Shown here: positions 3,194-44,719 of the stretch, piece by piece | How positions within the stretch are numbered: the stretch's first letter is position 1 | Layout: each line of letters begins with the position of its first letter | Assembly: GCA_019429275.1 (NCBI GenBank) | Contig: JAHYJC010000012.1 | Coordinates: forward strand, 1-64,000 | Length of the DNA stretch: 64,000 nt | Reading direction: 5' to 3' | From: Lentimicrobium sp. | Lineage (GTDB): Bacteria; Bacteroidota; Bacteroidia; Bacteroidales; Lentimicrobiaceae | Program-made: the position numbers and the translations under genes | The notes under the pieces: model-generated | The model's input: the letters and a program-made list of their open reading frames with translations, nothing else | Database searches by the model: none | What the model was told of the DNA's origin: nothing

Positions 3194-6100
3194 ATGAAAC
3201 AAAAATTTCTTGCTCTGATTTTATTAAGTTTCTCTATTTCTCTGTTTGCTCAACCCCAGAAGGTTGCAATAGAAAATAATGAAAAAGGAATGAAACTTAT
3301 GGTGAATGACCAGAGTTTCATGATCAACGGTATAAACTGGGATTATTTCCCCGTTGGTACCAATTACTCCTACAGCTTATGGACTCAATCTGACGACTTT
3401 ATTAAAAAGGCGCTCGATGATGAAATGTCAATGCTGAGAAACATGAATGTGAATACCATTCGTGTTTACACCGGTATCCAGCCTAAATGGATAAAATACA
3501 TTTACGAAACGTATGGTATTTATACTATGCTCAACCATTCTTTCGGAAGGTATGGGCTTACGCTCGACGGGGCATGGGTTGCTAACACAGATTATTCGGA
3601 TTCCCGGGTAAAGGAGCTTCTGTTAAAGGAAGTTACAGAGCTTGTAGCAGAATATAAGGACACACCAGGACTTTTGTTATACCTCCTGGGCAACGAAAAC
3701 AACTACGGATTGTTCTGGCGCGGAGCCGAAACCGAAGATATTCCGATGGAAGACAGAGAATCGACACAAATGGCCCGTTACCTCTATAAATTGTTCAACG
3801 AAGCCTCTTTGGCCATGAAAGCCATTGATCCCCATCACCCTGTATCATTTTGTAACGGCGATTTGCTGTTCCTTAATATTATCGCCGAAGAGTGTAAGGA
3901 TGTGGATATTTTTGGTATTAACGTTTACCGTGGCATTTCATTTACCGATCTGTTCGACAGGGTTAAGAAAGAGTATGGGAAACCCGTTTTATTGTCAGAA
4001 TTTGGTTCTGATGCCTTTAATGCCATCACCATGGAAGAGGCCCAGCAGGAACAGGCAATCTATAACCTTGCCAACTGGAAAGAAATATATGAGAATTCTG
4101 CAGGAATGGGAAAAGCAGGCAATTCCTTAGGTGGTTTTACCTTTCAGTTTAGTGATGGCTGGTGGAAATATGGCCAGACCGATTACCTTGATGTGCACGA
4201 CTCCCATGCTTCGTGGGCAAACGGCGGATATTTATTTGATTATCAGCCAGGCGAAAACAACATGAACGAAGAGTGGTTTGGAATTTGCGCCAAAGGCCCA
4301 ACCAATGCCAAAGGGTTTTATCAGTTGTACCCAAGAGCATCTTATTATGCACTCAAAGAAGCCCACCAACTGAACCCCTACGCCGAAGGTACCACTTATC
4401 AAACTTTGCAGCAGCACTTTGGTAACATTCAGGTGGTGGAATCGCTATTGAAAGCCAGGGGCGACAAGGCTGCACTGGAAGGCGAAAAGCTGAAAAAAAT
4501 CAGTATGAGCCGCTTAAGTGCTGAATACACAACATTTAACACCGGTGGCGCTTTAATCTCAACACCTAAAACAGCTGTCCCGGGCAGTAACACTTATCCT
4601 AACCAACTGGGTTTTGATCAGATGCAGTCTTTTTACTTTGGCGTTGAGGCCAATCCTGCGCCCAATTTCAGAGCCAATGTTGAGGTAAATGTTCTGGGAA
4701 ATGTGGCTCAAAATCCCATAGATCAGATCTTTTATGAAAACAGGGGCCGGCCTGTTGAAGTTGCCGGAGATGATGGTAACCTGAATATTGAATCAATCAA
4801 CAGGGTTCAGATATACAAGGCAAGCTATGAATGGGATCATAAATTATTTAAGATCAATGGTTTTTATCGCACCGGTCATTATCATTGGGGCTATGAAGGC
4901 GATTTCTTCGGACTTTACCCCGAAGCCAACTACGGTCCCAATATTGATATCTACAATGGAATTGCTCCCTTTGGATTTGAAATGGAAGGCAAGAAGAAAT
5001 TCAGTGATTTCAAACTGGCTTTTGGTCCGCAGCTCTGGTGGGGCGCTAACCCGGCTGTATTGCTGAAATACAGTAAAAAAGTAGCAAAAATCAACTTCAC
5101 CGGAATTTTTCATGAAGACCTTGCACAGCTTGGCCTTACTGAAAGTTCCTTTGCCATTCCGCAACCTAAAACCAGGCGACTGACCTTACATTTGAACAGG
5201 GAGTTTGGTAAGTTTGGTATTGATGCTGGCGGAATCTGGGCAGGGCAGCCTTTACAGGGAAGAGAGTTTCAGGTAGTAAGAGGTGAACCAGGAAATTACA
5301 TGGTTTATAAGGATGAAATAAAGTCTCAGGATAATTTCGGAGGAAAACTTAAATTTACATATACCGGCGGAAGGTTCAACTGGTATGCACAATCAGCAGC
5401 CATGGGCCTGGTAGCTCAGGGCGGCGCCGACCAGACACTGACTTTTACCGGTTGGAGGCTAAAAGACAGTGGCAGTGGAAACCAATATAATTTCCTGTCA
5501 GGATTTAGCTATTTGATTGGTGATTTGCAAATAGCTCCTAACTTTCTGTGGCAAAAACCCATTGAAGGGCCTATCCCTGCTGACGTTCCAGCTCCCGGAA
5601 GACCAAGAAATATACTCGACGATCCATTTGTAGTAAGGGTTAACAGGGAACAGGTGGCAGGTGAGATACTATTTACCTACGACCCTACACCCGGCACCTG
5701 GATGTATAACTGGGACAGTGACCGTTCGGAAGATGCGGGCCTTGCCGTTAGTTTAGGTTTTGTTTACAGGCATTTGCCAACCACACAGGATGCTGCCATA
5801 GGAATTTTACCCGATGGCCGTACAACGTTCGCCTTTCCCGGCGCAACTCCTGCCCAGGATCTATGGGAAATCCACTCAAGGCTGGTTTCGAAAGTCAGTG
5901 GCGATTTTGGTTTTATAGCCAATGTTTATGCCGGTGATGCTCAGGCCAATGGAAGTGATGAAAGGCTTATCAGGCGCTATGGCATTGATTTGCGAATGAT
6001 TTATAAAGAGCTGAAACTTACTTCTTTCGCCAGGATCAACGACTGGGGTCCTTACGACTATCACCGCGATTACAACCTTACATTCCCGCTTCAGCTAATG

Positions 6101-6328
6101 GCTGACATATCTACCTCTCTCCGAAAGCCCGATTGGTTTGACCTTCCTAATACCAACATTGGGTTGCGGGCAACATACCGTACGCTCGACAGGTATTCTC
6201 CCCGCTATTCACCAACCCAGAAGCCTGATCCAAGCGGAGCAATGGTTCCCGATCCTGAAGCAATTGGATTTGACAACGGTAATGAATGGGAAATCAGAAC
6301 TTATGTGCGCATAAATATTGGTAAATAA
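3194..6328 (+). CDS. Secreted clan-A glycoside hydrolase domain (GH2/GH5-like TIM barrel) fused to a C-terminal outer-membrane beta-barrel-like domain
   Basis: Signal peptide MKQKFLALILLSFSISLFAQ; LLYLLGNENNYG (acid/base) and KPVLLSEFGSDAF (nucleophile); residues ~475-1044 are alternating amphipathic beta-strand-like sequence ending EWEIRTYVRINIGK. Confidence 0.7.
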   Translation: MKQKFLALILLSFSISLFAQPQKVAIENNEKGMKLMVNDQSFMINGINWDYFPVGTNYSYSLWTQSDDFIKKALDDEMSMLRNMNVNTIRVYTGIQPKWIKYIYETYGIYTMLNHSFGRYGLTLDGAWVANTDYSDSRVKELLLKEVTELVAEYKDTPGLLLYLLGNENNYGLFWRGAETEDIPMEDRESTQMARYLYKLFNEASLAMKAIDPHHPVSFCNGDLLFLNIIAEECKDVDIFGINVYRGISFTDLFDRVKKEYGKPVLLSEFGSDAFNAITMEEAQQEQAIYNLANWKEIYENSAGMGKAGNSLGGFTFQFSDGWWKYGQTDYLDVHDSHASWANGGYLFDYQPGENNMNEEWFGICAKGPTNAKGFYQLYPRASYYALKEAHQLNPYAEGTTYQTLQQHFGNIQVVESLLKARGDKAALEGEKLKKISMSRLSAEYTTFNTGGALISTPKTAVPGSNTYPNQLGFDQMQSFYFGVEANPAPNFRANVEVNVLGNVAQNPIDQIFYENRGRPVEVAGDDGNLNIESINRVQIYKASYEWDHKLFKINGFYRTGHYHWGYEGDFFGLYPEANYGPNIDIYNGIAPFGFEMEGKKKFSDFKLAFGPQLWWGANPAVLLKYSKKVAKINFTGIFHEDLAQLGLTESSFAIPQPKTRRLTLHLNREFGKFGIDAGGIWAGQPLQGREFQVVRGEPGNYMVYKDEIKSQDNFGGKLKFTYTGGRFNWYAQSAAMGLVAQGGADQTLTFTGWRLKDSGSGNQYNFLSGFSYLIGDLQIAPNFLWQKPIEGPIPADVPAPGRPRNILDDPFVVRVNREQVAGEILFTYDPTPGTWMYNWDSDRSEDAGLAVSLGFVYRHLPTTQDAAIGILPDGRTTFAFPGATPAQDLWEIHSRLVSKVSGDFGFIANVYAGDAQANGSDERLIRRYGIDLRMIYKELKLTSFARINDWGPYDYHRDYNLTFPLQLMADISTSLRKPDWFDLPNTNIGLRATYRTLDRYSPRYSPTQKPDPSGAMVPDPEAIGFDNGNEWEIRTYVRINIGK

Positions 6329-6342
6329 TAAAACTCAAAAAG

Positions 6343-8208
6343 ATGAAAGCAAACATTCTCATCATTTTAAAAAAATATATCCCCATAGGTATTCTCGTTT
6401 TACTTTTCATGGGGTGCGAACGCGAGTTAAGCGATCTTAAACCTGTTACGTTTCCCGACAATCCTGAAGTATTTATTGACGGATTCAGCGCCGGATTGAA
6501 CTATGCAGCTTTTGGAGGCTCAGTGCCAACCGCTTTCGATGTGGATAATAAAGAAACCTGGAACAATTCCAAAGCATCTATGCGATTTGATGTTCCAAAC
6601 GTAGGTGATCCTCAGGGTGCCTATGCCGGAGGAGTTTTCTTTACCGAAACCGGCCGAAACTTAACGGGCTACAATGCTTTGACATTCTGGGCAAAAGCTT
6701 CCGAATCGGCAGTTATTGATCTGGTAGGCCTTGGTAACGACCTTGGAGCCTCAAAATACCAGGTAACTATTTCGGGTTTACAGGTGAGTACAAGCTGGAA
6801 AAAATATATAATTCCTCTGCCTAATTCATCGGTACTTACTGCCGAACGCGGAATGTTTTTCTATTCCACGGGGCCTGTCGACGGCAAAGGTTATACTTTC
6901 TGGATTGATGAACTGAAGTTTGAAAACCTGGGTACCATAGCGCATCCGCAGTTTGCCATTTTCAATGGTGAAGAGAAAGTGGAAACTTCGTTTATCGGAG
7001 TTACACAAAATATCAGTGGACTATCGGCAACCTTTAACCTGCCTGCCGGTGTTAATCAATCGGTAAATGCAGCTGCCGCGTATTTTAATTTTTCTTCATC
7101 CAACGAGGGCATAGCTACAGTTAATGAATCTGGTGTAGTTGCAGTAGTGGGAGGCCCGGGCAGTGCCGAAATTACAGCCAGGGTTGGGAATGAAGTTGCC
7201 AAGGGTTCGCTTACCTTACAATCCATTGGTACTTTTCAGCAGGCACCCCTGCCGGTTCATCCTGCTGATGATGTAATTTCCATCTTCAGCGATGCCTACA
7301 CCAGTGTGCCTGTGAATTATTACAATGGTTACTGGGAGCCCTATCAAACTACATTATCGGCCGATTTTGAAGTAAACGGGGATCATATTCTTCAATATAT
7401 TGATTTTAATTTTGTGGGTATCGAATTCAGCACTCCAACCGTAGATGCTACTGCAATGACGCACTTGCATATGGATATCTATATACCGAATACCCTCACC
7501 GCCGATGCGCAACTGAAAATAGAACTGGTGAATGAAGGCGCTGCCAGCTCTGCAACATCTGTTGTAAATATCCCTGTTTCACAGTCAAATAAATGGATTG
7601 GTCTTGATTTGCCGTTCTCTGGATTTAACGGATTAGGCAGCACGGCTAAGCTGATGCAGATTATTTTTGTGAATGAAAACAACAAGATTTCCAGCTTCTA
7701 TGCCGATAATATTTATTTCTATTCCGATGGTACCCAGCCACCTCCTCCTGGTGAACCGGATGTTGCGGCTGCAACTCCAACCTATCCGGCGGCTAATGTG
7801 ATTTCGGTATTCAGCGATGCCTATACAGCCATTCCTGGAACTAATCTTAACCCTGACTGGGGACAGGCAACGGTTGTTACAACAATTCAAATTCAGGGAA
7901 ACAATACTTTAAAACTTGCCGGACTCAACTATCAGGGCATTGAATTTGGCAGCAGCCAGAATGTAACAGCCATGGGATTTTTGCATGTAGACTTCTGGAC
8001 TGCAAATTCAACAGCACTCAATATCTTTCTGATTAGTCCGGGGCCTGTTGAAACCGCTTATTCATTGGCGGTTCCGACTACAGGCTGGACGAGTATCGAC
8101 ATTCCATTGTCTTCATTTGCACCGGTAAATCTTGGCGATGTCATTCAAATCAAATTCGATGGTAATGGCGATATTTATCTGGACAACATTTATTTTCGTA
8201 AAAATTAA
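6343..8208 (+). CDS. Surface lipoprotein, putative glycan-binding protein with a BIG2-like Ig domain and two related CBM-like modules
   Basis: SPII signal (VLLFMGCERE); FSSSNEGIATVNESGVVAVVGGPGSAEITA BIG2-like; two DVISIFSDAYT/NVISVFSDAYT modules; no catalytic motif seen. Confidence 0.7.
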   Translation: MKANILIILKKYIPIGILVLLFMGCERELSDLKPVTFPDNPEVFIDGFSAGLNYAAFGGSVPTAFDVDNKETWNNSKASMRFDVPNVGDPQGAYAGGVFFTETGRNLTGYNALTFWAKASESAVIDLVGLGNDLGASKYQVTISGLQVSTSWKKYIIPLPNSSVLTAERGMFFYSTGPVDGKGYTFWIDELKFENLGTIAHPQFAIFNGEEKVETSFIGVTQNISGLSATFNLPAGVNQSVNAAAAYFNFSSSNEGIATVNESGVVAVVGGPGSAEITARVGNEVAKGSLTLQSIGTFQQAPLPVHPADDVISIFSDAYTSVPVNYYNGYWEPYQTTLSADFEVNGDHILQYIDFNFVGIEFSTPTVDATAMTHLHMDIYIPNTLTADAQLKIELVNEGAASSATSVVNIPVSQSNKWIGLDLPFSGFNGLGSTAKLMQIIFVNENNKISSFYADNIYFYSDGTQPPPPGEPDVAAATPTYPAANVISVFSDAYTAIPGTNLNPDWGQATVVTTIQIQGNNTLKLAGLNYQGIEFGSSQNVTAMGFLHVDFWTANSTALNIFLISPGPVETAYSLAVPTTGWTSIDIPLSSFAPVNLGDVIQIKFDGNGDIYLDNIYFRKN

Positions 8209-8249: not shown

Positions 8250-9074
8250 ATGAATAAAATAAATAAATTCAGGAAAATCCGCATCCAGTCATTTTTGCTG
8301 CTGATTCTGGTTATTTTTTGGGGTTGCGAACGCGACAACTTTCAGAAACTGGATGATCGCAATTGGCAATTAACCTGGAGCGATGAATTTGCCGGCACTG
8401 CCGGCCAGTTACCGGATGCATCAAAATGGGCCTTTGATTTGGGTACTGGTGACAATGGCTGGGGAAACAGCGAATTACAAAGCTATACCAACAGTCCGGC
8501 CAATGTGTCGCTCGACGGCAATGGCAACCTGGTAATAACAGCAATTAGGAGTGGCAATAGTTTTACCTCGGCCCGGATTAACACAAAGGGCCTGTTTTCT
8601 CAGAAATATGGCCGTTTTGAGGCACGATTAAAAACGCCTTATGGCCCGGGTTTGTGGCCTGCATTCTGGATGCTGGGCACAAGTATTGAGACTGTTCCCT
8701 GGCCTGGATGTGGCGAAATAGATATTATGGAACTCAGGGGGCAGGAACCTCACATTATCCACGGCACCATTCATGGACCAGGATATTCAGGAGGAAACCC
8801 GATTACTAAAAGTTATGCCCTCAATAACGACAGGTTCGATGCCGATTTTCATCTTTACGCCATTGAATGGGATAAAGATAAAATTGACTTTTTTGTGGAT
8901 GACTATCTTTATCAGCGCATTGAACGCAGTGATGTACCTGGTGAATGGGTTTACGACGAACCGTTTTTCATCCTGCTCAATGTGGCAGTGGGCGGCAATT
9001 ACGTCGGATTTCCTACTGCCCAGACCCCTTTCCCGCAAAAAATGGTCGTTGATTATGTAAGGGTTTATCAGTGA
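8250..9074 (+). CDS. GH16 family beta-glucanase (laminarinase-like) lipoprotein
   Basis: GCGEIDIMELRG matches the GH16 ExDxxE catalytic motif; W..FWMLG; SPII signal VIFWGCERD. Confidence 0.93.
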   Translation: MNKINKFRKIRIQSFLLLILVIFWGCERDNFQKLDDRNWQLTWSDEFAGTAGQLPDASKWAFDLGTGDNGWGNSELQSYTNSPANVSLDGNGNLVITAIRSGNSFTSARINTKGLFSQKYGRFEARLKTPYGPGLWPAFWMLGTSIETVPWPGCGEIDIMELRGQEPHIIHGTIHGPGYSGGNPITKSYALNNDRFDADFHLYAIEWDKDKIDFFVDDYLYQRIERSDVPGEWVYDEPFFILLNVAVGGNYVGFPTAQTPFPQKMVVDYVRVYQ

Positions 9075-9130: not shown

Positions 9131-12100
9131 ATGAATAGAGCATATCCGGGAAATCCAATGAACGTTTCAAACAAAACAATTGAAATGCAGGTAGTTAATC
9201 ATGAAAACGAAAGCTACTTTAAGATTTCAAATCATGATATCATGCGTCCGTTTTTTATGAGCATTGTAAGTGATTCGAATCACTGGATGTTTATTGCAAG
9301 TAACGGAGGACTTACTGCCGGTCGAAAAAATCCTGAATATGCTCTATTCCCTTATTACACCGACGATAAAATCATAGAATCGGCCGACATCACCGGAAGC
9401 AAATCCATTTTCCGGGTACAAACAGATGGCCAGGTGTGGGTATGGGAACCCTTTTCTGAGAGGTTTACCGGAAAATATTCCATCAGTCGAAACCTTTACA
9501 AAAGCATTTATGGCAATAAAATCATCTTCGAAGAAATTAACCACGATTTGGGGTTCACCTTCAGATATCAGTGGAACTCATCGAAGATGTATGGTTTTGT
9601 AAGAAAGGCAGTTTTAATAAACAATTCGGCTAAAGATTACCAGATTACCCTGCTGGATGGAATACAGAATATCATGCCTTTTGGGGTACCCAGCGACCTG
9701 CAGCGATCGACCAGCAACCTGGTTGATGCTTACAAAAGAAGTGAACTGGAACCGGAATCAGGTATCGGAATTTATGCCCTCAGCGCCATTATTGTTGACA
9801 AAGCCGAACCCAGTGAAGCACTGAAAGCCAACATTGCCTGGTCTTTAGGTCTTGATAAACCAAAGTATCTGCTGTCATCTCTGCAACTTGATAATTTCAG
9901 AAAAAACATTGAAATTTCAGAAGAAACAGATATTAAAGGGGAAAAAGGAGCATATTTTGTTTGTGCTGACATTTTGTTGCCGGCTAAAAGTGATAAAAAC
10001 TGGGAAATCATTACCAACGTTAATCAGCATCATGCTCAGATCATTGGCCTTTCGCAGCTTTTAAAAGACAAAAACAATCTTGACTTGCAGATTCAGGAAG
10101 ATATCAATTCCGGAACAGAAAAATTAATTAATCTTGTGGCAAGTGCTGATGGATTGCAATTTACAGCCGAAAAGCTGAACAACTCCCGCCATTTTTCAAA
10201 TGTGTTGTTCAACATCATGCGTGGTGGCATTTTTGATGATGGTTACCTTTTGAAAAAAGAGGATTTTGTAAGTCACCTTGCAAAAGCCAATGCCAAGGTA
10301 GTTGAAAGGAATCAGGAATTTATAGGTAATCTTAAGGAGAATTTCAGCCAATCAGAGTTAAAAAGCCTTTTGTCAGAAAGCAACGATGCTGATCTGATAA
10401 GGTTATCTTTGGAGTATCTGCCGTTAAAATTCAGTCGCAGGCATGGCGATCCCAGTCGGCCCTGGAACTATTTTATCATCAATATTCAAAGCGAAACCGA
10501 TGGTTCTGAAATTCTGGATTATGAAGGTAACTGGCGGGATATTTTCCAGAACTGGGAAGCGCTGGCACATTCGTATCCCGAATTTGTAACCGGCATGATT
10601 TTTAAATTTCTGAATGCTTCAACCTTTGATGGTTACAATCCTTATCGCGTAACAAAGGACGGTTTTGACTGGGAAACCATAGAACCCGATAATCCCTGGT
10701 CTTATATCGGATACTGGGGAGATCATCAGATTATTTACCTGCAGAAATTCTTTGAAATCACCGAAAAATTCTACCCAGGCACATTGCAATCATTTTTCGA
10801 CAAAGAATGGTTTGTTTATGCTGCTGTTCCTTACAAAATTAAGCCTTACACCCAAATCCTGAAAAATCCGAAAGACACCATTGAATTTGATCATAAATGG
10901 GATAGTGCAATCAGAAAGCAGCGCGATTTGCTTGGAGCTGACGGCGCTCTTCTAATGGACAATAACAGTGATATTTACAGGGTTAACTTCATTGAAAAAA
11001 TCCTGGCTTCGGTGCTGGCAAAAATGTCGAACCTGGTGCCTGAAGCCGGCATTTGGATGAACACACAGCGCCCTGAGTGGAACGATGCCAATAACGCCCT
11101 GGTAGGAAATGGTGTTTCAATGGTTACGCTTTACTATCTGCACCGTTTCATGAAATTCTTCCGGCAAATGGTTGAACACTCAGAACTGGAAAACATAAAA
11201 TTATCGGGTGAACTGCTTGAATTCTACCATAGCATGAGAGAAACCCTCCAGGAATTCAGCCCCATGTTGTCAAAATCCCTCAGTGACCAAGACCGGAAAG
11301 TTATTATGGATCGCATGGGAAGGGCTGCATCAGATTACCGACAGCAAATTTACCAAAACGGTTTCTGGGGTAAGAAAAGGACAGCCTCAATGGCCGGCCT
11401 GAGAACATTTACTCAACTATGCCTAGATTTTATCGAACATTCAATCAAGGTTAACCAGAGAGTTGATAAACTTTATCACGCCTATAATCTCCTGACTGTA
11501 AAGGAAACCGGAGTTTCTTCTTCGCACCTCCCCGAAATGCTGGAAGGGCAGGTAGCAGTTTTAAGTTCGGGCTATTTAACTTCTGCACAGGCGCTGGAGG
11601 TGATGGATGCACTTAAAGATAGTGCTTTGTTCCGCCCGGACCAGTATAGCTACATCTTATACCCCAACAAAAAATTACCCGGTTTTTTACAAAAGAACAA
11701 TCTTCCAAAAATCAGGGTGCAGGAGTCGAAATTGATTAATAGACTGGTATCTGATGGGAATACTGAAATTGTTGTACAGGATATTCGCGGAGGATTGCAT
11801 TTTAACGGAAATTTTAAAAATGCCGCTGATCTGAATGATGCCCTGAATAGATTATCTGAGGGCGTTTACCAGAAGCTCGTTGAAAAAGACCGCAAACTGT
11901 TGCTTGATATTTTTGAGGAAGTATTCAATCATAAAGCATTTACGGGCAGGTCGGGCACTTTTTACTCCTACGAAGGGCTGGGGTCAATCTATTGGCACAT
12001 GGTTTCAAAACTGCATCTGGCAGTTCAGGAATGTTGCCTGAGAGCCATTGAAACGGGCGCTGATAAAAAAGTTATCGGGCATTTACTGGATCACTATTAC

Positions 12101-12586
12101 GAAATTGAAGCAGGAATCGGCGTTCATAAATCTCCTGAACTTTATGGTGCTTTCCCTACCGATCCTTACTCGCACACCCCTCAGCACAGAGGTGCCCAGC
12201 AGCCTGGAATGACCGGACAGGTTAAGGAAGATATTCTGGTCAGGTTTGGTGAATTGGGCGTATTTGTGAAGGATGGTAACCTCTGTTTCAACCCCTGGCT
12301 GCTCAGAAAAGATGAGTTTCAAAGTAAGGATGCAGTTTTTGAATATCGGAAATCCGGTGAAGGCATCGGTGAAATAAAACTCACTTCCGGCCAGTTGGCT
12401 TTTACCTATTGCCAGACCCCCATCGTGTATTCCCTTTCCGTAACTGACCGTATTACAGTTTACTATACCAATGGAAACAAAATACAAATTGATGGCAATG
12501 CATTAAATAAGGAAATCAGCAGTCTGATATTCAGAAGAACCGGAGCAATTGAAAAGGTGGAAGTTTCAATAAATAAAAAGGGATGA
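9131..12586 (+). CDS. Cytosolic glycoside phosphorylase of the GH94/GH149/GH161 superfamily; GH149-type beta-1,3-glucan phosphorylase most likely
   Basis: No signal peptide, 1151 aa; PEWNDANNALVGNG resembles the GH94-like WND catalytic motif; NPWSYIGYWGDHQIIY; next to GH16/17/30. Confidence 0.6.
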   Translation: MNRAYPGNPMNVSNKTIEMQVVNHENESYFKISNHDIMRPFFMSIVSDSNHWMFIASNGGLTAGRKNPEYALFPYYTDDKIIESADITGSKSIFRVQTDGQVWVWEPFSERFTGKYSISRNLYKSIYGNKIIFEEINHDLGFTFRYQWNSSKMYGFVRKAVLINNSAKDYQITLLDGIQNIMPFGVPSDLQRSTSNLVDAYKRSELEPESGIGIYALSAIIVDKAEPSEALKANIAWSLGLDKPKYLLSSLQLDNFRKNIEISEETDIKGEKGAYFVCADILLPAKSDKNWEIITNVNQHHAQIIGLSQLLKDKNNLDLQIQEDINSGTEKLINLVASADGLQFTAEKLNNSRHFSNVLFNIMRGGIFDDGYLLKKEDFVSHLAKANAKVVERNQEFIGNLKENFSQSELKSLLSESNDADLIRLSLEYLPLKFSRRHGDPSRPWNYFIINIQSETDGSEILDYEGNWRDIFQNWEALAHSYPEFVTGMIFKFLNASTFDGYNPYRVTKDGFDWETIEPDNPWSYIGYWGDHQIIYLQKFFEITEKFYPGTLQSFFDKEWFVYAAVPYKIKPYTQILKNPKDTIEFDHKWDSAIRKQRDLLGADGALLMDNNSDIYRVNFIEKILASVLAKMSNLVPEAGIWMNTQRPEWNDANNALVGNGVSMVTLYYLHRFMKFFRQMVEHSELENIKLSGELLEFYHSMRETLQEFSPMLSKSLSDQDRKVIMDRMGRAASDYRQQIYQNGFWGKKRTASMAGLRTFTQLCLDFIEHSIKVNQRVDKLYHAYNLLTVKETGVSSSHLPEMLEGQVAVLSSGYLTSAQALEVMDALKDSALFRPDQYSYILYPNKKLPGFLQKNNLPKIRVQESKLINRLVSDGNTEIVVQDIRGGLHFNGNFKNAADLNDALNRLSEGVYQKLVEKDRKLLLDIFEEVFNHKAFTGRSGTFYSYEGLGSIYWHMVSKLHLAVQECCLRAIETGADKKVIGHLLDHYYEIEAGIGVHKSPELYGAFPTDPYSHTPQHRGAQQPGMTGQVKEDILVRFGELGVFVKDGNLCFNPWLLRKDEFQSKDAVFEYRKSGEGIGEIKLTSGQLAFTYCQTPIVYSLSVTDRITVYYTNGNKIQIDGNALNKEISSLIFRRTGAIEKVEVSINKKG

Positions 12587-13935
12587 GCGTCAATACTACA
12601 AAATTATCCGTAAAGGAAAAAATCGGTTATGGCCTTGGCGATACAGCCTCGCACTTTGTGTGGGACATGGTTGGCTTCTGGATTTTGATTTTTTACACTG
12701 ATACCTTCGGGATATCTGCAGCTGCTGCCGGAACTATTATGCTCATTGCCCGTTTCTGGGATATGCTCAGCGATCCGTTGATGGGCATAATAGCCGACAG
12801 AACCAACACCCGTTGGGGAAAGTTTCGTCCCTATATCCTATGGATGGCTCTTCCTTACAGCGTACTGGCGGTGCTCACCTTTTCCACACCCGAGATCGGG
12901 CAAACCGGTAAAGTAATTTATGCCGGGGTTACCTATCTGCTGCTGATGACTGTTTTTACTGCCATCAACCTGCCTTATTCTTCACTCGGCGCTGTAATGA
13001 CTTCCGACTCTTACGAGAGGGCCGGATTAAATTCCTACCGTTTTATCTTTGCCTTTGTGGGACAATTTATCGTTACCGGAACTGCGCTTTATCTGGCCAG
13101 CTATTTTGGCAAAGGTGACAATGCCAAAGGTTACCAGTACACCCTGATGCTGTTTGCGGCAATCAGTTTTGTGCTGTTCATGATTACCTTTAAAACAACA
13201 AAGGAAAGGGTGAAGCCTCCGGCAGAACAACAAAAAAATCTTAAACAGGATCTTAAAAATCTTTTCAAAAACCGGCCATGGGTCATACTGTTCTTTGTCG
13301 GCATTGTTTCGTTTGTCATGTTTGCTCTGCAAAATCTGACCATTGCCTATTATTTCAAATATTATATGGGGCAAGAGCAAAATGTGCAATTGTTTAATGT
13401 GATAGGCACTGTTGCACTCATCCTTGGTATTCCGTTCTCTAAACCTCTTGCAAAAAGGTTTGGGAAACGAAATGTATATATCGCAAGTTCTCTGATTTCG
13501 GGCCTGTTTTTCATTCTGTTATACATTCCGGGAAACGAAAACATTTACTCCATTTACATACTGAACATCCTGGCCAAATTCACGTATGCCCCTGCCGTTC
13601 CGTTGCTTTGGACCATGCTCGCCGATACTGCCGATTACTCAGAGTGGAAATTTGGCCGCCGCGCAACCGGTTTGGTCTTTTCGGCAGCCACTTTCGCACA
13701 AAAAGCTGGATGGGGAATCGGAGGCGCATTGGCTGGCTGGCTGCTTGTATTGTTTCAATTTGTTCCAAATGCTGTACAATCGGCCACGTCGCTTAATGGA
13801 ATAAAACTGATGATTTCAGTATTTCCCGGAGTTCTGTATATGTCGTGCGCCATACTGCTTTATTACTATGCCATTGATCACAAAACCTGCCTTGTGATGC
13901 AGGTGGAACTGGAACAACGAAGAAAAGAATCATAA
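12583..13935 (+). CDS. GPH-family (glycoside-pentoside-hexuronide:cation) MFS symporter
   Basis: KIGYGLGDTASHFVWDMVGFWILIFYTDTFG and DPLMGIIADRTNTRWGKFRPYILW; multiple TM segments; ATGA overlap with upstream gene. Confidence 0.88.
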   Translation: MSVNTTKLSVKEKIGYGLGDTASHFVWDMVGFWILIFYTDTFGISAAAAGTIMLIARFWDMLSDPLMGIIADRTNTRWGKFRPYILWMALPYSVLAVLTFSTPEIGQTGKVIYAGVTYLLLMTVFTAINLPYSSLGAVMTSDSYERAGLNSYRFIFAFVGQFIVTGTALYLASYFGKGDNAKGYQYTLMLFAAISFVLFMITFKTTKERVKPPAEQQKNLKQDLKNLFKNRPWVILFFVGIVSFVMFALQNLTIAYYFKYYMGQEQNVQLFNVIGTVALILGIPFSKPLAKRFGKRNVYIASSLISGLFFILLYIPGNENIYSIYILNILAKFTYAPAVPLLWTMLADTADYSEWKFGRRATGLVFSAATFAQKAGWGIGGALAGWLLVLFQFVPNAVQSATSLNGIKLMISVFPGVLYMSCAILLYYYAIDHKTCLVMQVELEQRRKES

Positions 13936-13956: not shown

Positions 13957-15261
13957 ATGCAATCTGAAAAAATAAATAAAATAAGTAAGGCTGTAAGGAA
14001 AATTCTTCAATTTCTGATGGTTTCTTTGTCAGTTTTGCTTTTGGTGTCATGCATGCCACGTCCGGTAAGCACTGGTAAAACCGCTGCTGATATTTTAGGT
14101 AATCCGGAATACAAAGCCATTTCGTATGGAGGATATCGCGAAAAGACCAGAGATATACAACCTACAATTCCTGAACTTAAAGAAGACATGAAAATTCTGT
14201 CGGCCATGGGAATTAAGTTGATCCGCACTTATAATGTTTATTACGACGAGGCCTCCAATCTGCTTGAAGCTATCAGTCAATTAAAAAAAGATGATCCTGA
14301 ATTTGAAATGTACGTGATGCTTGGTGCGTGGATAGACTGTAAGAATGCCTTTACTGAGCTTCCTGACCGCATAAGAAATGAGGAAAGCCCGCAGAATGCG
14401 GCTGAAATCGACCGTGCTGTTGAACTGACCCGGCAAAACCCTGATATCGTGAAGATTATAGCTGTTGGTAATGAAGCCATGGTGCATTGGGCATGGAACT
14501 ATTATGTTGAGCCTGCCATCATCCTTAGATGGGTAAAGCATTTACAAAAACTGAAGAAAAGCGGCGATTTGCCCGAAACTTTATGGATCACAAGTTCCGA
14601 CAATTTTGCCTCGTGGGGAGGAGGTGGAAGTGAATACCATCTTGAAGAGTTGAACGAACTTATTCGTGAAGTTGATTATATTTCGATGCATACTTACCCC
14701 ATGCACGACACTCATTATAATCCTGATTTCTGGGGAGTTCCCGAAGCTGAGGAAGCACTGACGGACATGGAAAAAATTGATTCGGCCATGATGCGTTCCA
14801 GGGATTATGCCATCTCTCAGTACGAAAGCGTAGTAAAATATATGCAAAGCCTTGGTGTTGATAAACCAGTGCATATGGGCGAAACCGGATGGGCAACCCA
14901 GTCCGGTGAGTTCTATGGCGACAATGGTTCCAGGGCATGCGATGAATACAAGTCGGCAATATATTACAAACTGATGCGTGAATGGACAGATTCAAAAGGC
15001 ATAACCTGCTTTTATTTTGAAGCATTTGATGAGCAATGGAAAGATGCTGCAAATCCACTGGGTTCCGAAAACCATTTCGGACTGTTTAACCTGCAATCTC
15101 AGGCCAAATATGCCTTGTGGGATTTGGTGGATGCCGGTGTTTTTGATGGTTTGACCCGTGATGGAAAGCCCATCACAAAGACATTCAATGGCGATACGGC
15201 AGCTATGATGCTTAAAGTAAAAGTTCCGCCAACTGCCAAAGAAATCGCAGAGCGCAAGTAA
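13957..15261 (+). CDS. GH17-like beta-1,3-glucanase/transglycosylase lipoprotein
   Basis: Lipobox LLLVSCMP; AVGNEA acid/base region; HMGETGWATQSG nucleophile region; EAFDEQWK..NHFGLF. Confidence 0.82.
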   Translation: MQSEKINKISKAVRKILQFLMVSLSVLLLVSCMPRPVSTGKTAADILGNPEYKAISYGGYREKTRDIQPTIPELKEDMKILSAMGIKLIRTYNVYYDEASNLLEAISQLKKDDPEFEMYVMLGAWIDCKNAFTELPDRIRNEESPQNAAEIDRAVELTRQNPDIVKIIAVGNEAMVHWAWNYYVEPAIILRWVKHLQKLKKSGDLPETLWITSSDNFASWGGGGSEYHLEELNELIREVDYISMHTYPMHDTHYNPDFWGVPEAEEALTDMEKIDSAMMRSRDYAISQYESVVKYMQSLGVDKPVHMGETGWATQSGEFYGDNGSRACDEYKSAIYYKLMREWTDSKGITCFYFEAFDEQWKDAANPLGSENHFGLFNLQSQAKYALWDLVDAGVFDGLTRDGKPITKTFNGDTAAMMLKVKVPPTAKEIAERK

Positions 15262-15276
15262 CATAAAATCAATGAT

Positions 15277-16779
15277 ATGAAGGCTATTGCAAAACATCTT
15301 ACTTTTTTAATTCTCATATTCATACTAATGAGTAGTTGTACCAATTCAAAAAAATGGGAAGTTGAAGTCTTTGAGACATCGGTAAATGGTAACCAACTCA
15401 CCAGATTAACTGAATTTCAGACTCCGGAAACAAAAGTGGAAATTTCCATTTTACCCGATCAGGAATTTCAGTCTGTCACCGGGTTTGGAGGTTCGTTTAC
15501 CGAAGCTTCTGCACACCTGCTTAACCAGGTTAGCAAGGAAAACCGAAACAAAATTCTGGAGGCTTATTTTGGCGAATCGGGTGCCAGATATTCACTCACC
15601 CGCACTCACATGAACTCCTGCGATTTCTCGTTGGGCAACTATTCTTATGCCCCGGTTGAAGGCGATACAGAATTGGCGAATTTTTCAATTGAGGAAGATA
15701 TGGATGACATTATTCCTATGATTAAAGATGCCAAAGCCATTTCGAAGGATGGGTTTAATATTATCTCATCACCCTGGACTGCTCCGCCATGGATGAAAGA
15801 CAATAAAGACTGGCGTGGTGGAAAGTTGTTGCCGGAATATTATGACACCTGGGCTTTGTTTTTTTCTAAATATATTGATGCCTATCGTGCTGAAGGCATT
15901 GAAATCTGGGGATTTACGGTCGAAAACGAACCCCTGGGCAATGATAACAACTGGGAGAGTATGCATTACACACCGGAAGAAATGACCGGATTTGTTAAAA
16001 ACCATCTGGGACCAAAATTGAAATCCGACGGGCACAATGTTAAAATTCTGGGATTTGACCAAAATCGTGATGAACAATTAAAAATATGGGTAGATGTAAT
16101 GTTTGGCGATGAAGTAGCAAAGGATTATTTCGATGGAACGGCCGTTCACTGGTACGCCAGTACCTTTGATTACTTTCCTGAAGCCTTGCAATATGTTGTT
16201 AATAAAGCGCCTGGAAAGCATATTATTAACACTGAGGCCTGTGTTGATGCCCAGGTGCCAAGGTGGAATGATGACGCATGGTACTGGTCGGAGGAAGCCA
16301 CCGACTGGGGCTGGACCTGGGCTCCAGAGGACCAGAAATACCTTCATCCGAAATACATACCTGTTTACCGTTATGCACGCGATATCATCGGATGCCTCAA
16401 CAACGGGGTAGATGGGTGGATTGACTGGAATATGGTTCTCGACAGGCAGGGAGGCCCGAATTGGGCAAAGAACTGGTGTGTTGCACCTGTTATTGTTGAC
16501 CCTGAAATGGATGAAGTTTATTTCACACCCCTGTACTATACCCTTGCTCATTTCAGCAGGTTCATCAGACCCGGAGCTGTGCGGATTGGTTTTAAAAATT
16601 CAAGCGATAGCCTTATGGTAACTGCTGCACGCAATCCTGATGGGAGCATTGCCGTCATTTGCTTCAATCCCGAAGAAGACTCAAAAGGAGTTCATCTTTC
16701 ACTTGGCGAAAAATCGGTTGATTTCGCCATCAATGCAAAAGCCATACAAACCATTCTAATCAATGACCATAATAAATAA
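15277..16779 (+). CDS. GH30 family glycosidase lipoprotein (glucosylceramidase/beta-1,6-glucanase-like)
   Basis: GFGGSFTEASAHLL; TVENEP acid/base; IINTEAC nucleophile; lipobox LMSSC. Confidence 0.9.
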   Translation: MKAIAKHLTFLILIFILMSSCTNSKKWEVEVFETSVNGNQLTRLTEFQTPETKVEISILPDQEFQSVTGFGGSFTEASAHLLNQVSKENRNKILEAYFGESGARYSLTRTHMNSCDFSLGNYSYAPVEGDTELANFSIEEDMDDIIPMIKDAKAISKDGFNIISSPWTAPPWMKDNKDWRGGKLLPEYYDTWALFFSKYIDAYRAEGIEIWGFTVENEPLGNDNNWESMHYTPEEMTGFVKNHLGPKLKSDGHNVKILGFDQNRDEQLKIWVDVMFGDEVAKDYFDGTAVHWYASTFDYFPEALQYVVNKAPGKHIINTEACVDAQVPRWNDDAWYWSEEATDWGWTWAPEDQKYLHPKYIPVYRYARDIIGCLNNGVDGWIDWNMVLDRQGGPNWAKNWCVAPVIVDPEMDEVYFTPLYYTLAHFSRFIRPGAVRIGFKNSSDSLMVTAARNPDGSIAVICFNPEEDSKGVHLSLGEKSVDFAINAKAIQTILINDHNK

Positions 16780-18292: not shown

Positions 18293-19213
18293 ATGTCATA
18301 CAGAAAAGAAAGATTACTTAATTATAAGCGACCAGAAGGCATCCGGCAAGAATTGTTGTATGATGACAAGTCCTTGGAGGATATCAAAAGCTTATTTCTG
18401 GAAGTTTTACATGGTGGCGTAAATGGCTTCTGCTTCAGCATATACGAAGATGGGCAACAACCGGGAACCCTGATTTCTGATGCACAGATAAGAAGAAGAA
18501 TGCAAATTCTTAAACGCTATACCAATTCAGTGCGATCGTTTTCCTGTATCGAAGGCAATGAGCTGGTTCCTAAAATAGCCAAGGAATTTGGCATGAAAAC
18601 ACTGGTTGGCGCCTGGTTAGGAAAAGATGAAGAAAAAAACCATCAGGAAATTGAGAGCCTGATTCAATTGGCCAGAGATGGATACGTTGATTATGCAGCG
18701 GTTGGTAATGAAGTGCTTTACAGGAAAGACTTAACTGAAAGTCAACTCCTGGATGTCATTATGCATGTGAAAAGTGAAATCCCGGATATACCCGTTGGCT
18801 ATGTTGATGCATACTATGAATTTGTGCAAAGGCCGGCCATTGCCGATGCCTGTGATGTGATTTTTTGTAACTGTTACCCATTCTGGGAAGGAACCGGATT
18901 TATTGATTCATTCGATCACATGCAGCATATGTATTACCAGGCATTGTCGGCAGGGAAAGGTAAAAAAGTCATCATCTCCGAAACCGGCTGGCCAAGTCAG
19001 GGTCAGGCTCTTGGAGGAGCACAACCTTCCATTCTCAATGCTATGAAGTATTTCATCAACACAAACCTGTGGGCAATAGATGAAAATATTGAAGTTTTCT
19101 ATTTCGCCTCATTTGATGAATCGTGGAAGGTAGGACCAGAGGGAGATGTAGGTGCACACTGGGGCATCTGGGATAAGTCAGAAAAACTAAAATTTGTCGA
19201 TGAACATATTTAA
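18293..19213 (+). CDS. GH17-like protein without signal peptide (predicted cytosolic)
   Basis: AAVGNEVLY and IISETGWPSQG catalytic regions; no N-terminal hydrophobic segment. Confidence 0.78.
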   Translation: MSYRKERLLNYKRPEGIRQELLYDDKSLEDIKSLFLEVLHGGVNGFCFSIYEDGQQPGTLISDAQIRRRMQILKRYTNSVRSFSCIEGNELVPKIAKEFGMKTLVGAWLGKDEEKNHQEIESLIQLARDGYVDYAAVGNEVLYRKDLTESQLLDVIMHVKSEIPDIPVGYVDAYYEFVQRPAIADACDVIFCNCYPFWEGTGFIDSFDHMQHMYYQALSAGKGKKVIISETGWPSQGQALGGAQPSILNAMKYFINTNLWAIDENIEVFYFASFDESWKVGPEGDVGAHWGIWDKSEKLKFVDEHI

Positions 19214-20132
19214 CAAATTGGGTATAATTCCCGGAAAGGCCTTGTGCTATTCCGGCTTTAGGGAAGGTCAACAGCCCGGAGGTGCGTATCCTGATTATGA
19301 GGAGATTAAAGAGGATCTCCTGCTTCTCAGAAATCACTGGAAATATCTGCGTCTGTTTGATTGCGATGAGCATGCCCAAAAAGTTCTGGATGTGATTGCC
19401 AATGAAAAACTTGACTTCAAAATAATGCTGGGCGCGTATATTGAAGCCGAAATGAACAATTTTAACTGCCCTTGGGGAGGAGTGTATTCTGAAAAACAAC
19501 TCAGAAAAAACCGCAACAGCAATCTTAAAAAGATAGATAAGCTGATTGATTTAGGCAACCGATACCCCAACATCATTTTTTCGCTTTCGGTTGGCAATGA
19601 AGCATGCGTTGAATGGACTGACCATTATGTTCCGGAGAGCAGGGTGCTGGAATATGTAAGGAAAGTCAAAGCCAAAGCAGAACAACCGGTTACTTTCTGC
19701 GAAAATTATGCACCCTGGATTTTAAAATTGGAAAAATTGGCCGCTGAGGTTGATTTTATTTCCATTCACACCTATCCCGTCTGGGAATACAAGCACATTG
19801 ACGAGTCACTTGACTATTCAAAAGAAAACTACCGATCGGTTGCCAATAAATATCCTGACAAGCCTGTAATAATTACTGAAGCTGGTTGGGCAACCAATTC
19901 GAACGGAAGAGGAATTAATCCTCAACATGTAAATGAAGAGTTTCAGAAAACCTATTTTGAAAAACTCATGGAATGGGTCGAAAGCGAAAATATTCTTGCT
20001 TTCTTTTTTGAAGCTTTTGATGAATCATGGAAAGGATCATCAGAACCTCTGGAACCCGAGAAGCACTGGGGACTTTTCAAAATTGACAGAACACCGAAAA
20101 TGGCTGTCAAGAATTTTATGCAAAGTGAATAA
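19194..20132 (+). CDS. GH17-like protein without signal peptide (predicted cytosolic), overlapping the upstream GH17
   Basis: SVGNEACVEW and IITEAGWATNS; EAFDESWKGSSEPLEPEKHWGLF. Confidence 0.78.
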   Translation: MSMNIFNKLGIIPGKALCYSGFREGQQPGGAYPDYEEIKEDLLLLRNHWKYLRLFDCDEHAQKVLDVIANEKLDFKIMLGAYIEAEMNNFNCPWGGVYSEKQLRKNRNSNLKKIDKLIDLGNRYPNIIFSLSVGNEACVEWTDHYVPESRVLEYVRKVKAKAEQPVTFCENYAPWILKLEKLAAEVDFISIHTYPVWEYKHIDESLDYSKENYRSVANKYPDKPVIITEAGWATNSNGRGINPQHVNEEFQKTYFEKLMEWVESENILAFFFEAFDESWKGSSEPLEPEKHWGLFKIDRTPKMAVKNFMQSE

Positions 20133-20233: not shown

Positions 20234-22051
20234 ATGATGAAAAAAACTACGATTATTTTATTGATGCTTATTGCATCAGTCAGTTTTGCCCAAAACAATC
20301 CCATCAATTTTGAATCAGGCGGTTTCGGAGCAGGCTGGACATGGACCGTTTTTGAAAACGATGTCAATCCGCCGGTAGAGATAATTTCAAATCCCGATCC
20401 TACAGGCATTAACGCTTCAGCTACCGTTGCCAAATTTACGGCTTTACAAACCGGAAATCCATGGGCCGGATGCGAATCGGCTCACGGAACAACCGATCTG
20501 GGGCCTTTTGTGCTGGATGCTACAAATTCCACCATCAAAATTATGGTCTGGAAATCTGTGATAAGCGATGTCGGAATAAAGTTGGTAGCAGCTACCGGAT
20601 GGGCACTACCGGAGATTAAAGTTGCCAACACACTGATCAATCAGTGGGAAGAACTTACTTTCAATTTCTCAGCTTATTCCAATCCTCCTGGCTCCGAAGG
20701 ACAGTACGACCAGATAGTGATTTTCCCTGATTTTGATTTGTCAGGCAGAACTCAAACCAACATTGTTTACTTCGACAATATCACTTTCAACGAGGCCGGA
20801 TCAACCCCGGGAGAGCCAGGCACTGCTGCTCCAATACCTCCGGTTCGCAATCCTGGTGACGTGATCTCAATTTTCAGCAATGCCTACAGTAATGTTGCCG
20901 GAACCGATTTCAATCCAAACTGGGGTCAGTCTACTGTGGTTAGTTTCCCGCTTATAGAGGGCAACGAAACGATGAGATATGCTAACTTTAATTACCAGGG
21001 CACCCAGTTTGCCTCAGCCCTGAATGCTGCTGAAATGGAATTTCTGCACCTTGATATGTGGACTGCTGATGCCACAAGTGTGAATATTTTCTGCATCAGC
21101 CCGGGACCGGTTGAAGTGCCTTATTCACTGCCCATTACTCCCAATCAATGGGTAAGTCACAACATTCCTATGTCTTCTTTTGCAGGTGTAAATTTATCCG
21201 AGATTATTCAGTTCAAGTTCGATGGAGGTGACGGCTCACAGACCATTTATTTGGATAATATTTACTTCTTTAAAGAGGGTGGTGTTATTGGAGATACTCC
21301 CAGAAACCCGATTGATTTTGAAACTGGCGGCTATGGCGCTGACTGGACATGGACTGTTTTTGAAAACGGGCCGAATGACCCGTTGGGAATCATCCCGAAT
21401 CCCGATCCAAGCGGCATCAATACATCTGCAACAGTAGCCAAATTTGTTGCGCTGCAAAGCGGACAACCCTGGGCAGGCGTTGAATCAGGACATGGTGACA
21501 ACGACCTGGGGCCTTTTGTACTCGATGCAACCAATTCAGTTGTCAAAATCAAGGTTTGGAAGCCCGTGATCAGCGATGTGGGTATTAAACTGGTGGCAGC
21601 AACCGGCTGGGCTCAGCCTGAAATCAAAGTAGCAAACACCCTGATCAATCAATGGGAAGAGCTTACTTTCGATTTCTCAGCCTATCCCAATCCTCCGGGT
21701 TCTGAGGGTATGTACGATCAGATCGTGATTTTCCCTGATTTCAATCTGGCTGGCAGAACCCAGGACAATGTGATTTATTTCGACCACATTACATTTAATC
21801 AACTGATGAACACCAACAATCTGACTACCACTGGTCGTATTTTGGTTTATCCTAATCCTGTACAAGCCGGTGAACAGATAAACCTTGGCGCCAATGTTGA
21901 GCAATTCGACTTGATAGACATGAGCGGAAGATTGATGTCTTCGGCAAACACTTCTTTTATTGATACTGAAATGCTTGGCAAGGGAATCTATATTTTAAGA
22001 ATTTTCACCAAAAACGGTAATATTCAAACTCAAAAACTAATTGTAAAATAA
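20234..22051 (+). CDS. Secreted non-catalytic, multi-module carbohydrate-binding-like protein with T9SS C-terminal sorting domain
   Basis: Signal peptide; near-identical modules (NPINFESGG.. and NPIDFETGG..) flanking a DVISIFSNAY module; C-term ILVYPNPVQAGEQINLG..GIYILRIFTKNGNIQTQKLIVK. Confidence 0.8.
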   Translation: MMKKTTIILLMLIASVSFAQNNPINFESGGFGAGWTWTVFENDVNPPVEIISNPDPTGINASATVAKFTALQTGNPWAGCESAHGTTDLGPFVLDATNSTIKIMVWKSVISDVGIKLVAATGWALPEIKVANTLINQWEELTFNFSAYSNPPGSEGQYDQIVIFPDFDLSGRTQTNIVYFDNITFNEAGSTPGEPGTAAPIPPVRNPGDVISIFSNAYSNVAGTDFNPNWGQSTVVSFPLIEGNETMRYANFNYQGTQFASALNAAEMEFLHLDMWTADATSVNIFCISPGPVEVPYSLPITPNQWVSHNIPMSSFAGVNLSEIIQFKFDGGDGSQTIYLDNIYFFKEGGVIGDTPRNPIDFETGGYGADWTWTVFENGPNDPLGIIPNPDPSGINTSATVAKFVALQSGQPWAGVESGHGDNDLGPFVLDATNSVVKIKVWKPVISDVGIKLVAATGWAQPEIKVANTLINQWEELTFDFSAYPNPPGSEGMYDQIVIFPDFNLAGRTQDNVIYFDHITFNQLMNTNNLTTTGRILVYPNPVQAGEQINLGANVEQFDLIDMSGRLMSSANTSFIDTEMLGKGIYILRIFTKNGNIQTQKLIVK

Positions 22052-33350: not shown

Positions 33351-33801
33351 AAAAGATGAATTAAAAGTGAGTATTAATGCGAATAGGTAATAGATGAACT
33401 TTAATCACAGCAAATATATACCAGAAGTATTAAAAATGCAATTCAAGCAGGGGAAAAATAATTTCTTCAATCAGCGCATGATTCATAATTAAGATTCGGG
33501 GAGTTTTTAATAAAGAAAACGGAGCGACTTGTAATTCGTCAAAATACAAATTCCATTCAAAATATCGCACACCTGTGCGGTTTTGTGTGTGTTTTTGAGA
33601 CTGTATTTTAACAGAAAAAAATAATGTTCGGAATTCATAATACACTAACAGATATCTATTCAGGCTTATATTATTCATATTCAATGCTATATAAGCAGTA
33701 TAAACTTCGCTTACCAACACCAACAAATCTTTATTTGTTTTCAGGAACGGGTATTGACTTAGGGGGTGTGCGCCCAATTGCCAACAGCAAAAACAGCACA
33801 T

Positions 33802-36800: not shown

Positions 36801-37248
36801 AATCGAAATAGTACTTCCCATCGCAGTTAATGCTGATTATAAGCTACATCCTTGTGGTAACAGCGGCTCTGTATTTACCATAAAAGCCGATGAACTTAAC
36901 GAAGGAGAAAATATACTGACCATTGCCTGTGAAAATGAGGGGGGATGCTTTGTTGAAACGAGTTTCACAGTCACGGTAATCAAGGCTATAAGACCTTTAG
37001 CAGGGAAAGAGCTTCTGATATATCCTAATCCGGCTGTTGATCAGATTTCATTTGCCACTACAATTCAGGATAATGGTAAAATCAGTGTTAAAATGTTCAA
37101 TATTTCCGGACAGTTGGTGGTGCAATCCGATAAGGATAATGCTTACGGCAACCCACTTGACATTTCAGGCTTGCCTGGTGGAATTTACATGGTAAGAATA
37201 GAAAATGGTGAAGAAGTGCAAAATGGCAGATTTATAAAAATGATGTAA
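33802..37248 (+). CDS. C25 (gingipain-family) peptidase with T9SS sorting domain (start trimmed from 33766)
   Basis: YLILAGDAAQVPTNQAENGASDNMYGYIAGDDHYPEVLVGRFSA; MYIGHGSSGAWTTSAFSGD; FIWAAGCSSGDF; C-term LLIYPNPAVDQISF..GGIYMVRIENGEEVQNGRFIKMM. Confidence 0.9.
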   Translation: MKKLFTIIFLMVLSGLLYSQEWISITGESSSEPRVTIENLPSVGLSASISIEGFWKQEVSTPAGIMNRIVVVDGTAQTEAGFPDVQHLTVSLMIPETGNFSINVLRADYTDYSDIVVAPSKGDPQFSDLPGWGSLVYNKDLLTNNDFYPAAIAEAGQPYIWCDTRGMALQVYPFAYNPVSGILRVYHNIEINLQVDAEPGTNELVRYSGSYGRLSGLSTLKQSHFINYSESSRYQPVEEAGNMLIVAPENYRTTLQPFIDWKTRCGIVCEFADVSAFQSADQIRQFVSERYYSQGLAYLILAGDAAQVPTNQAENGASDNMYGYIAGDDHYPEVLVGRFSAENVNQLAIMVKRSIEYEMLGKGNNAYSNFLGIASEEGPGDDGELDFEHMRNIGKLLQTYNYSNFAEMYDGSQGEADAAGNPNSGMVEAAINNGQGAVMYIGHGSSGAWTTSAFSGDKVAALSNTETHPFIWAAGCSSGDFVTTTCLAERWLRAEKNGVPTGAVAVMMSTSRQSWYPPMEAQDEMALILARKKESVTTRTFGGISMSGCMRMNDKYGPGGFKVTDTWNIFGDPSVVVRTALPMEMQALHSSTLGTDAREFVVKLNVSEALACITYNGKLYGAGRVQDGTAIINLDEIPETGVMQLTITAYNYRPYTADIEITKMPSVAFNPEPVNYAGKISPYTLLRWKTKDGMEPAFFEILISENPDMSNPISTMVSFTNEIRPQFPLAYATTCYWKVISYNEFGSSESRVFNFNTANPPDEDFESQGFPRSNWLNTDDSPWFIDGETSFEGNYSLRSGIIDDLGSSRLAYSCYSHSCDYISFRVKISSQTNADFLRLVINGNTVATYSGEFDWTEEKFPIDPGEHLIEWIYSKNESESHGMDAVWIDNIYLPGNLDPVVIIDDFETCQGYDVELSIQTTGSSRVEWLSEGSGIFDDYNSHFPVYIPSKEDKARGYVILFTDVFGNDFCDPVRYETTVTLLALPELPAINDTVLYAGEEIEIVLPIAVNADYKLHPCGNSGSVFTIKADELNEGENILTIACENEGGCFVETSFTVTVIKAIRPLAGKELLIYPNPAVDQISFATTIQDNGKISVKMFNISGQLVVQSDKDNAYGNPLDISGLPGGIYMVRIENGEEVQNGRFIKMM

Positions 37249-37284
37249 GGTCTCACTTCTTGAATTACCGGAAACCAGGGGGAA

Positions 37285-37319
37285 ATCATGGGCTTGCTGC
37301 AAAGCAGGCCCTGATTTTT
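37285..37319 (+). terminator. Probable rho-independent terminator
   Basis: ATCAtGGGC ... GCCCTGAT followed by TTTT. Confidence 0.5.
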
Positions 37320-37383
37320 ATGTGTAAAAATACAAGCAAACGAAATTATTATTTACTTTCACATCGACAAAACGACAAAACAG

Positions 37384-41007: not shown

Positions 41008-41051
41008 GAAAACAAATTATTCACTTACTTTGCCAAACAGATAGCGCAGGC

Positions 41052-42560: not shown

Positions 42561-42693
42561 CTCTCTTTTTCCATAAAAAGTAGCTGTGATCTGGATGTTG
42601 TCATTCTACCTGCATTTAATTACATCTGTTTTTGCGAAAATTCTGAACAACAAATCTTTTTATATGTTAATTGACGGAAAAAACCTCTTCAGC

Positions 42694-44652: not shown

Positions 44653-44692
44653 TTAAGAAATCCAATATTTCTTCAAACTCAAAAACCCACAA

Positions 44693-44719
44693 AGTCAGCT
44701 GTAAAAGGCTGATTTTTTT
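44693..44719 (+). terminator. Weak rho-independent terminator candidate
   Basis: TCAGC-tgtaaaag-GCTGA followed by TTTTTTT. Confidence 0.45.

Follow-up and report, generated by a model that had tools for sequence, protein, structure and literature searches.

The window analysed here is a 64,000-nucleotide stretch of a Lentimicrobium sp. contig. Positions 3194-6328 of its forward strand form one uninterrupted open reading frame of 1044 amino acids, which is single-copy in the genome. The original prediction was that this frame fuses an N-terminal glycosidase to a C-terminal membrane barrel, and the reading frame, the structural model and the homologues all agree with it. The translation contains the expected signal peptide, GNENNYG at residues 166-172 and LSEFGSDAF at residues 267-275. 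The barrel half, which had been placed from about position 4615, is present and begins slightly earlier, with strand 1 starting at residue 437 (nt 4502). The parts of the protein are:

3194..3253, + strand: Sec signal peptide, residues 1-20, read from the translation; without a lipobox cysteine; helix 2-18 in the model
3254..4396, + strand: clan GH-A TIM-barrel glycosidase domain near GH158, residues ~21-401 (Pfam, profile and Foldseek)
3695..3697, + strand: E168, predicted acid/base (GNEN motif), invariant in 78 sequences and aligned with GNE of BuGH158
3998..4000, + strand: E269, predicted nucleophile (SEFG motif), invariant in 78 sequences and aligned with TEWG of BuGH158
4397..4489, + strand: helical linker between enzyme and barrel, residues 402-432 (model helices 402-410 and 414-432)
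4499..6325, + strand: 24-strand outer-membrane beta-barrel, residues 436-1044 (AlphaFold2, fold matches, amphipathic strands)
4868..4969, + strand: aromatic-rich long loop, residues 559-592, nearly invariant (mean column conservation 0.93)
6047..6079, + strand: loop GPYDYHRDYNL, residues 952-962, nearly invariant (mean column conservation 0.96); putative role discussed below

Across 84,980 species genomes scanned, at least 582 loci encode this protein. In the best 80 of these, the copies are full-length or nearly so, with 65-91% identity, and the whole fusion is conserved; a chance or mis-joined reading frame is thus ruled out. Such full-length relatives are spread throughout the Bacteroidota, many of them environmental, and are part of clusters for beta-1,3-glucan. 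Two close full-length copies (L054 and L072) are in MAGs labelled Thermoanaerobaculia and Calditrichia, by horizontal transfer or misbinning. The barrel is present in 35 of 396 sampled Bacteroidota genomes, and all barrel matches lie within open frames of 1028-1084 amino acids except for draft-assembly fragments in three genomes (G119, G204 and G235). Neither a separate barrel gene nor a distant barrel relative was found in the 396 genomes, so the recent fusion of a free-standing porin is unsupported. Conservation is as high in the barrel as in the enzyme (mean identity to the window protein of 78% in residues 801-900 vs. 69.5% in residues 21-300), and the linker shows the lowest conservation in the mature protein, with a mean identity of 52%. 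We conclude that the fusion is real and old.

The fusion gene heads a co-directional cluster at 3194-24822, and no SusC or SusD is encoded in the window, as expected from its earlier description as the first gene of a locus lacking SusC. The other genes of the cluster are:

6343..8208, + strand: CBM11-like lipoprotein with a SusD-like surface signal (CERELSD) and acidic tract; Pfam CBM_11 E = 0.0012, below the cut-off
8250..9074, + strand: GH16 lipoprotein, probable surface endo-beta-1,3-glucanase; Pfam GH16 9.2e-26, acidic tract after the Cys
9131..12586, + strand: GH149 beta-1,3-glucan phosphorylase, cytoplasmic; NCBIfam NF058639, 1765.7 bits vs. a cut-off of 1150
12583..13935, + strand: GPH-type sugar:cation symporter; TIGR00792, 414 bits, above the cut-off
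13957..15261, + strand: GH17 lipoprotein, probably a periplasmic endo-glucanase; Pfam GH17 1.7e-7, few acidic residues after the Cys in the set
15277..16779, + strand: GH30, probable beta-1,6-glucosidase debranching enzyme; Pfam GH30 3.4e-75, activity by analogy with FbGH30 (PMC6246565)
16817..18247, + strand: second MFS/GPH-like transporter; TIGR00792, 186 bits, below the cut-off
18293..20132, + strand: two GH17-type genes (18293-19213 and 19194-20132) without signal peptides; the first matches Pfam GH17 at 8.9e-15
20234..22051, + strand: secreted modular protein with a type IX sorting domain; PF18962 5e-8, TIGR04183 1.9e-11
22126..24822, + strand: sensor-regulator with a propeller-type sensor and a C-terminal HTH, read from the translation

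The cluster at 3194-24822 is a beta-1,3-glucan (laminarin-type) locus. The second GH17-type gene (19194-20132) was identified by its similarity to GH17 in related loci. The GH17-type pair, with an overlap of about 20 bases, adjoins an MFS gene; in Formosa laminarin loci GH17 is fused to MFS (PMC6246565). Among 81 loci, 35 have a gene similar to the regulator in the vicinity of the fusion. Apart from the glucan locus, positions 33766-47743 of the window, as read from the sequence, encode a series of very large secreted proteins whose C-terminal tails are type IX-like; peptidase-like and subtilisin-like sequences are among them.

The enzyme half matches Pfam GH2_C, the GH2 TIM barrel, above the cut-off (E = 3.1e-6). 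In the match of a family profile to the endo-laminarinase BuGH158 (E = 3.5e-7), the GNE and E-[FW]-G motifs line up, and the top Foldseek match is the BuGH158 structure (6pal, 2.3e-12) at about 14% identity in the fold alignment. Like GH158 enzymes, the domain is a clan GH-A TIM barrel with the predicted acid/base and nucleophile glutamates at the ends of strands 4 and 7. The C-terminal Ig-like domain of BuGH158 is absent, and the TIM barrel is followed by the helical linker and then the membrane barrel. N136, E137 and E220 are essential in BuGH158 (PMC7157763). The assignment to the clan-A glycosidases has therefore held, with BuGH158 as the nearest solved relative and both catalytic glutamates invariant. 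The enzyme half is a clan GH-A enzyme near GH158 that is probably active on beta-1,3-glucan.

The barrel-only AlphaFold2 model, built from an alignment of 74 relatives, contains 24 main strands (pLDDT 85, pTM 0.83). When the barrel was compared with the PDB by Foldseek, the matches included TonB receptors, Occ porins, LptD, MtrB and maltoporin. The model and this fold search support the predicted membrane barrel and rule out a C-terminal half made of soluble beta-sandwiches, because all 50 matches listed are outer-membrane barrels. The TM-scores to known structures are low (0.21-0.39 by query length); therefore, no close structural relative is known. The barrel matches no family in Pfam or NCBIfam, and a profile search against PDB sequences gave one meaningless match. 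Outward positions of the strands are hydrophobic or aromatic and inward positions are polar, with an amphipathicity score above those of all 2000 within-strand shuffles. The connections from odd to even strands average 23 residues and those from even to odd strands average 5. Thus, the protein has the marks of an outer-membrane barrel: an even number of antiparallel, amphipathic strands, joined by tight turns at the side of the termini and by long loops at the opposite side. The inner face is more conserved than the outer face (0.80 vs. 0.67). Residues 612-620 form another loop which, like 559-592 and 952-962, is long, aromatic and nearly invariant. By these traits, the three loops would suit sugar binding, and loop 559-592 is a candidate sugar-binding constriction. 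The plug, 22-strand barrel and family HMM of SusC/TonB receptors were not found, there being no Pfam or NCBIfam match, and the fusion gene is not among the TIGR04056 matches of the genome.

The CBM-like lipoprotein gene is the immediate downstream same-strand neighbour in 123 of 123 fused loci with a visible neighbour, and it is found with none of 16 barrel-less homologues (17 as first counted; L155, cut by a contig end, was left out). The fusion had been proposed to be a self-contained 'hydrolase-porin'. The term "self-contained" overstates the case, since barrel and downstream gene are inseparable. The barrel-less genes arose repeatedly: in a 90-sequence tree, well-supported branches force at least 6 changes, and the shortest history has 8. 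Four barrel-less loci carry barrel remnants of about 50-80 residues before GH149:

L148, 3384-3620: decaying barrel remnant between the barrel-less glycosidase gene and GH149
L156, 5065-5310: same position, decaying
L158, 6350-6542: same position, decaying
L164, 3383-3568: same position, decaying

These four loci therefore descend from fused ancestors by deletion. Because one deletion can take the barrel, the lipoprotein and GH16 together, such co-loss is weaker evidence than the unbroken co-retention. Genome G606, the source of L156 and L163, holds one copy with the barrel fused and one without it, each on its own contig. Two divergent barrel-less homologues (L146 and L147) lie beside DNA gyrase-like genes rather than the usual neighbours, and together with L153 they form the most distant branch.

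The genome encodes eight SusC proteins above the family cut-off, all on contigs other than that of the window. Most fused loci have no SusC or SusD in view within flanks of about 10 kb. Of the 126 fused loci, 13 show SusD within these flanks, most of the 13 in one family; of the 17 barrel-less loci (L155 included), 5 do. SusC/SusD genes lie directly upstream of the barrel-less genes in L143, L145, L160 and L162, and SusCD is found further along one more barrel-less contig (L167). The barrel is not simply a SusCD substitute, because those 13 fused loci also have SusD nearby; the evidence that it strictly replaces SusCD is only suggestive. The fusion is usually the sole outer-membrane protein seen in its locus within these flanks, yet it can coexist with SusCD.

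In the model, the N- and C-termini of the barrel are both on the tight-turn side. With 24 strands and tight turns at the terminal ends, both termini would face the periplasm. Autotransporters likewise begin strand 1 from the periplasm, so this position alone is compatible with an autotransporter-like passenger. The full-length model, with a pTM of only 0.58, is too low in confidence to settle the placement of the domains. In Bacteroidota, acidic tracts after the lipoprotein cysteine mark surface export. Lipoboxes were scored with a simple in-house pattern, and D/E residues were counted at +2 to +7 after the Cys. The mean counts were 2.09 for GH16, 2.67 for the CBM-like lipoprotein and 2.38 for SusD, and 0.71 each for GH17 and GH30. 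The barrel-less homologues are mostly SPI-type or lipoproteins without an acidic tract after the Cys. Six of them have a lipobox, and because two of these six carry at least two acidic residues, some chance is left for a surface location of the enzyme.

The original prediction had likened the fusion to type V secretion. We consider it rather unlikely that the glycosidase is displayed on the cell surface in a type V-like manner, threaded through or anchored by a barrel that transports no sugar. The order of an N-terminal passenger and a C-terminal barrel, with helix 402-432 just before strand 1, fits such an arrangement, and BuGH158 is itself predicted to be a cell-surface enzyme (PMC7157763). 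However, Pfam finds no autotransporter, POTRA or TPS match in the fusion protein, the barrel has 24 strands and not 12 or 16, and its long, nearly invariant loops and conserved polar lumen also speak against surface display, as does the general lack of surface-export signals in the barrel-less homologues. In addition, the GH16 of the same locus is already exported by the lipoprotein signal in Bacteroidota. A periplasmic enzyme is favoured over type V secretion, which is unlikely, because the termini are on the turn side, the barrel-less homologues mostly lack surface signals and no type V domain is found. The alternative offered in the same prediction, a 'hydrolase-porin' with its enzyme in the periplasm beneath its own putative pore, is the best-supported fit, and we favour an enzyme suspended below a glucan pore of the same protein, partnered by a surface lipoprotein.

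It is also unlikely that the barrel transports nothing and only fixes the enzyme under the outer membrane, or serves as a platform for the lipoprotein or SusCD, with sugars entering through other porins or SusCD. The SusD genes near 13 of 126 fused loci and the repeated loss of the barrel with retention of the enzyme would agree with this. On the other hand, most fused loci lack SusC/SusD within about 10 kb, and conservation within the barrel peaks at its inner face and in its long loops, unlike in a mere anchor. Secretion of a polysaccharide through the barrel, with the hydrolase trimming it as in exopolysaccharide export, seems very improbable. In the exporters PgaA and BcsC, N-terminal periplasmic domains also precede the barrel. 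For PgaA, a TPR domain is reported (PMC9384988). But the present cluster encodes no synthase and contains a GH16 glycanase, a glucan phosphorylase and sugar symporters, and similar clusters are induced by laminarin (PMC6246565).

Sequence, model and comparison support the joining of the two domains, the fold of the barrel, the invariance of the catalytic residues, the pairing with the lipoprotein gene and the gene content of the locus. On this basis we regard a two-domain outer-membrane glucan intake module as the probable function of the protein, in which conductance, glucan selectivity, the periplasmic enzyme and contact with the lipoprotein are predicted features. The 24-strand barrel would form a large polar-lined channel in the outer membrane, and the beta-glucanase domain would hang from its periplasmic mouth by the short helical linker. 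Surface GH16 would cut the laminarin-type glucan, and the CBM-like surface lipoprotein, paired with the barrel, would capture the fragments. These would cross the barrel and be trimmed on emergence by the tethered enzyme, and then pass to periplasmic GH17 and GH30, MFS/GPH import and cytoplasmic phosphorolysis by GH149. The chances are about even that an orphan family of such channels, each with its own hydrolase at the periplasmic exit and a dedicated surface lipoprotein, provides a widespread SusCD-independent route of laminarin uptake. The hydrolase would then occupy the place where TonB receptors have their plug.

Laminarin ranks with the most plentiful polysaccharides that serve as food in the sea (PMC13188888). 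Laminarin clusters with GH149, GH17, GH30_1 and MFS are already known (PMC6246565; PMC13188888; PMC10108472). One of their genes, named 'GH2' in Muricauda and 'GH0' (unclassified) in North Sea MAGs, may encode the same protein as the fusion. GH149 clusters without susCD have been described (PMC5827456), and one such PUL was noted (PMC10108472). Outer-membrane pore proteins are reported to be fused to other domains only rarely, and SpmT is the one example with an enzyme that was found (PMC4827864). In a search that left preprints and most subscription journals outside its scope, we found no published description of a glycosidase-barrel fusion and no account of how sugars cross the outer membrane for GH149 clusters without SusC/SusD. 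The locus type is thus already published, and the barrel is the part for which this search gave no description. The fusion is a concrete candidate for, and probably is, the outer-membrane entry gate for algal glucan in clusters without the usual importer. Its partner gene is defined, homologues without the barrel can serve as natural controls, and its barrel has neither a Pfam/NCBIfam family match nor a close solved structure.

Several known systems share part of this architecture. BuGH158 (PDB 6pal; PMC7157763) has the same clan GH-A TIM barrel, aligned catalytic motifs and a beta-1,3-glucan locus, but it is distant in sequence, lacks a membrane barrel and ends in its Ig-like domain. In SusC/SusD and related TonB receptor-lipoprotein pairs, too, a polysaccharide locus supplies both an outer-membrane barrel and, next to it, a lipoprotein of the surface type. 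The fusion differs in having no TonB plug, 24 instead of 22 strands, a glycosidase ahead of the barrel and a partner that is CBM-like, not SusD-like. The sugar porins (maltoporin LamB, OprB and the Occ family) are outer-membrane barrels with a polar lumen, and maltoporin and Occ proteins are among the fold matches; they have 16-18 strands and no fused enzyme, and no sequence similarity to the fusion was detected. Type V proteins, such as autotransporters and the patatin-like PlpD type, have an N-terminal enzyme domain and a C-terminal outer-membrane barrel as well, but their barrels are 12- or 16-stranded with their own HMMs or POTRA domains, none of which was found in the fusion. SpmT, a channel-sphingomyelinase of Actinobacteria (TC 1.B.79; PMC4827864), likewise places a channel and an enzyme in one outer-membrane protein; its channel is N-terminal, and its enzyme and membrane are unrelated. 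The MFS-GH17B fusion of Formosa laminarin loci (PMC6246565) joins a transporter to an enzyme in the same kind of locus, but its transporter is an inner-membrane MFS protein and not an outer-membrane barrel.
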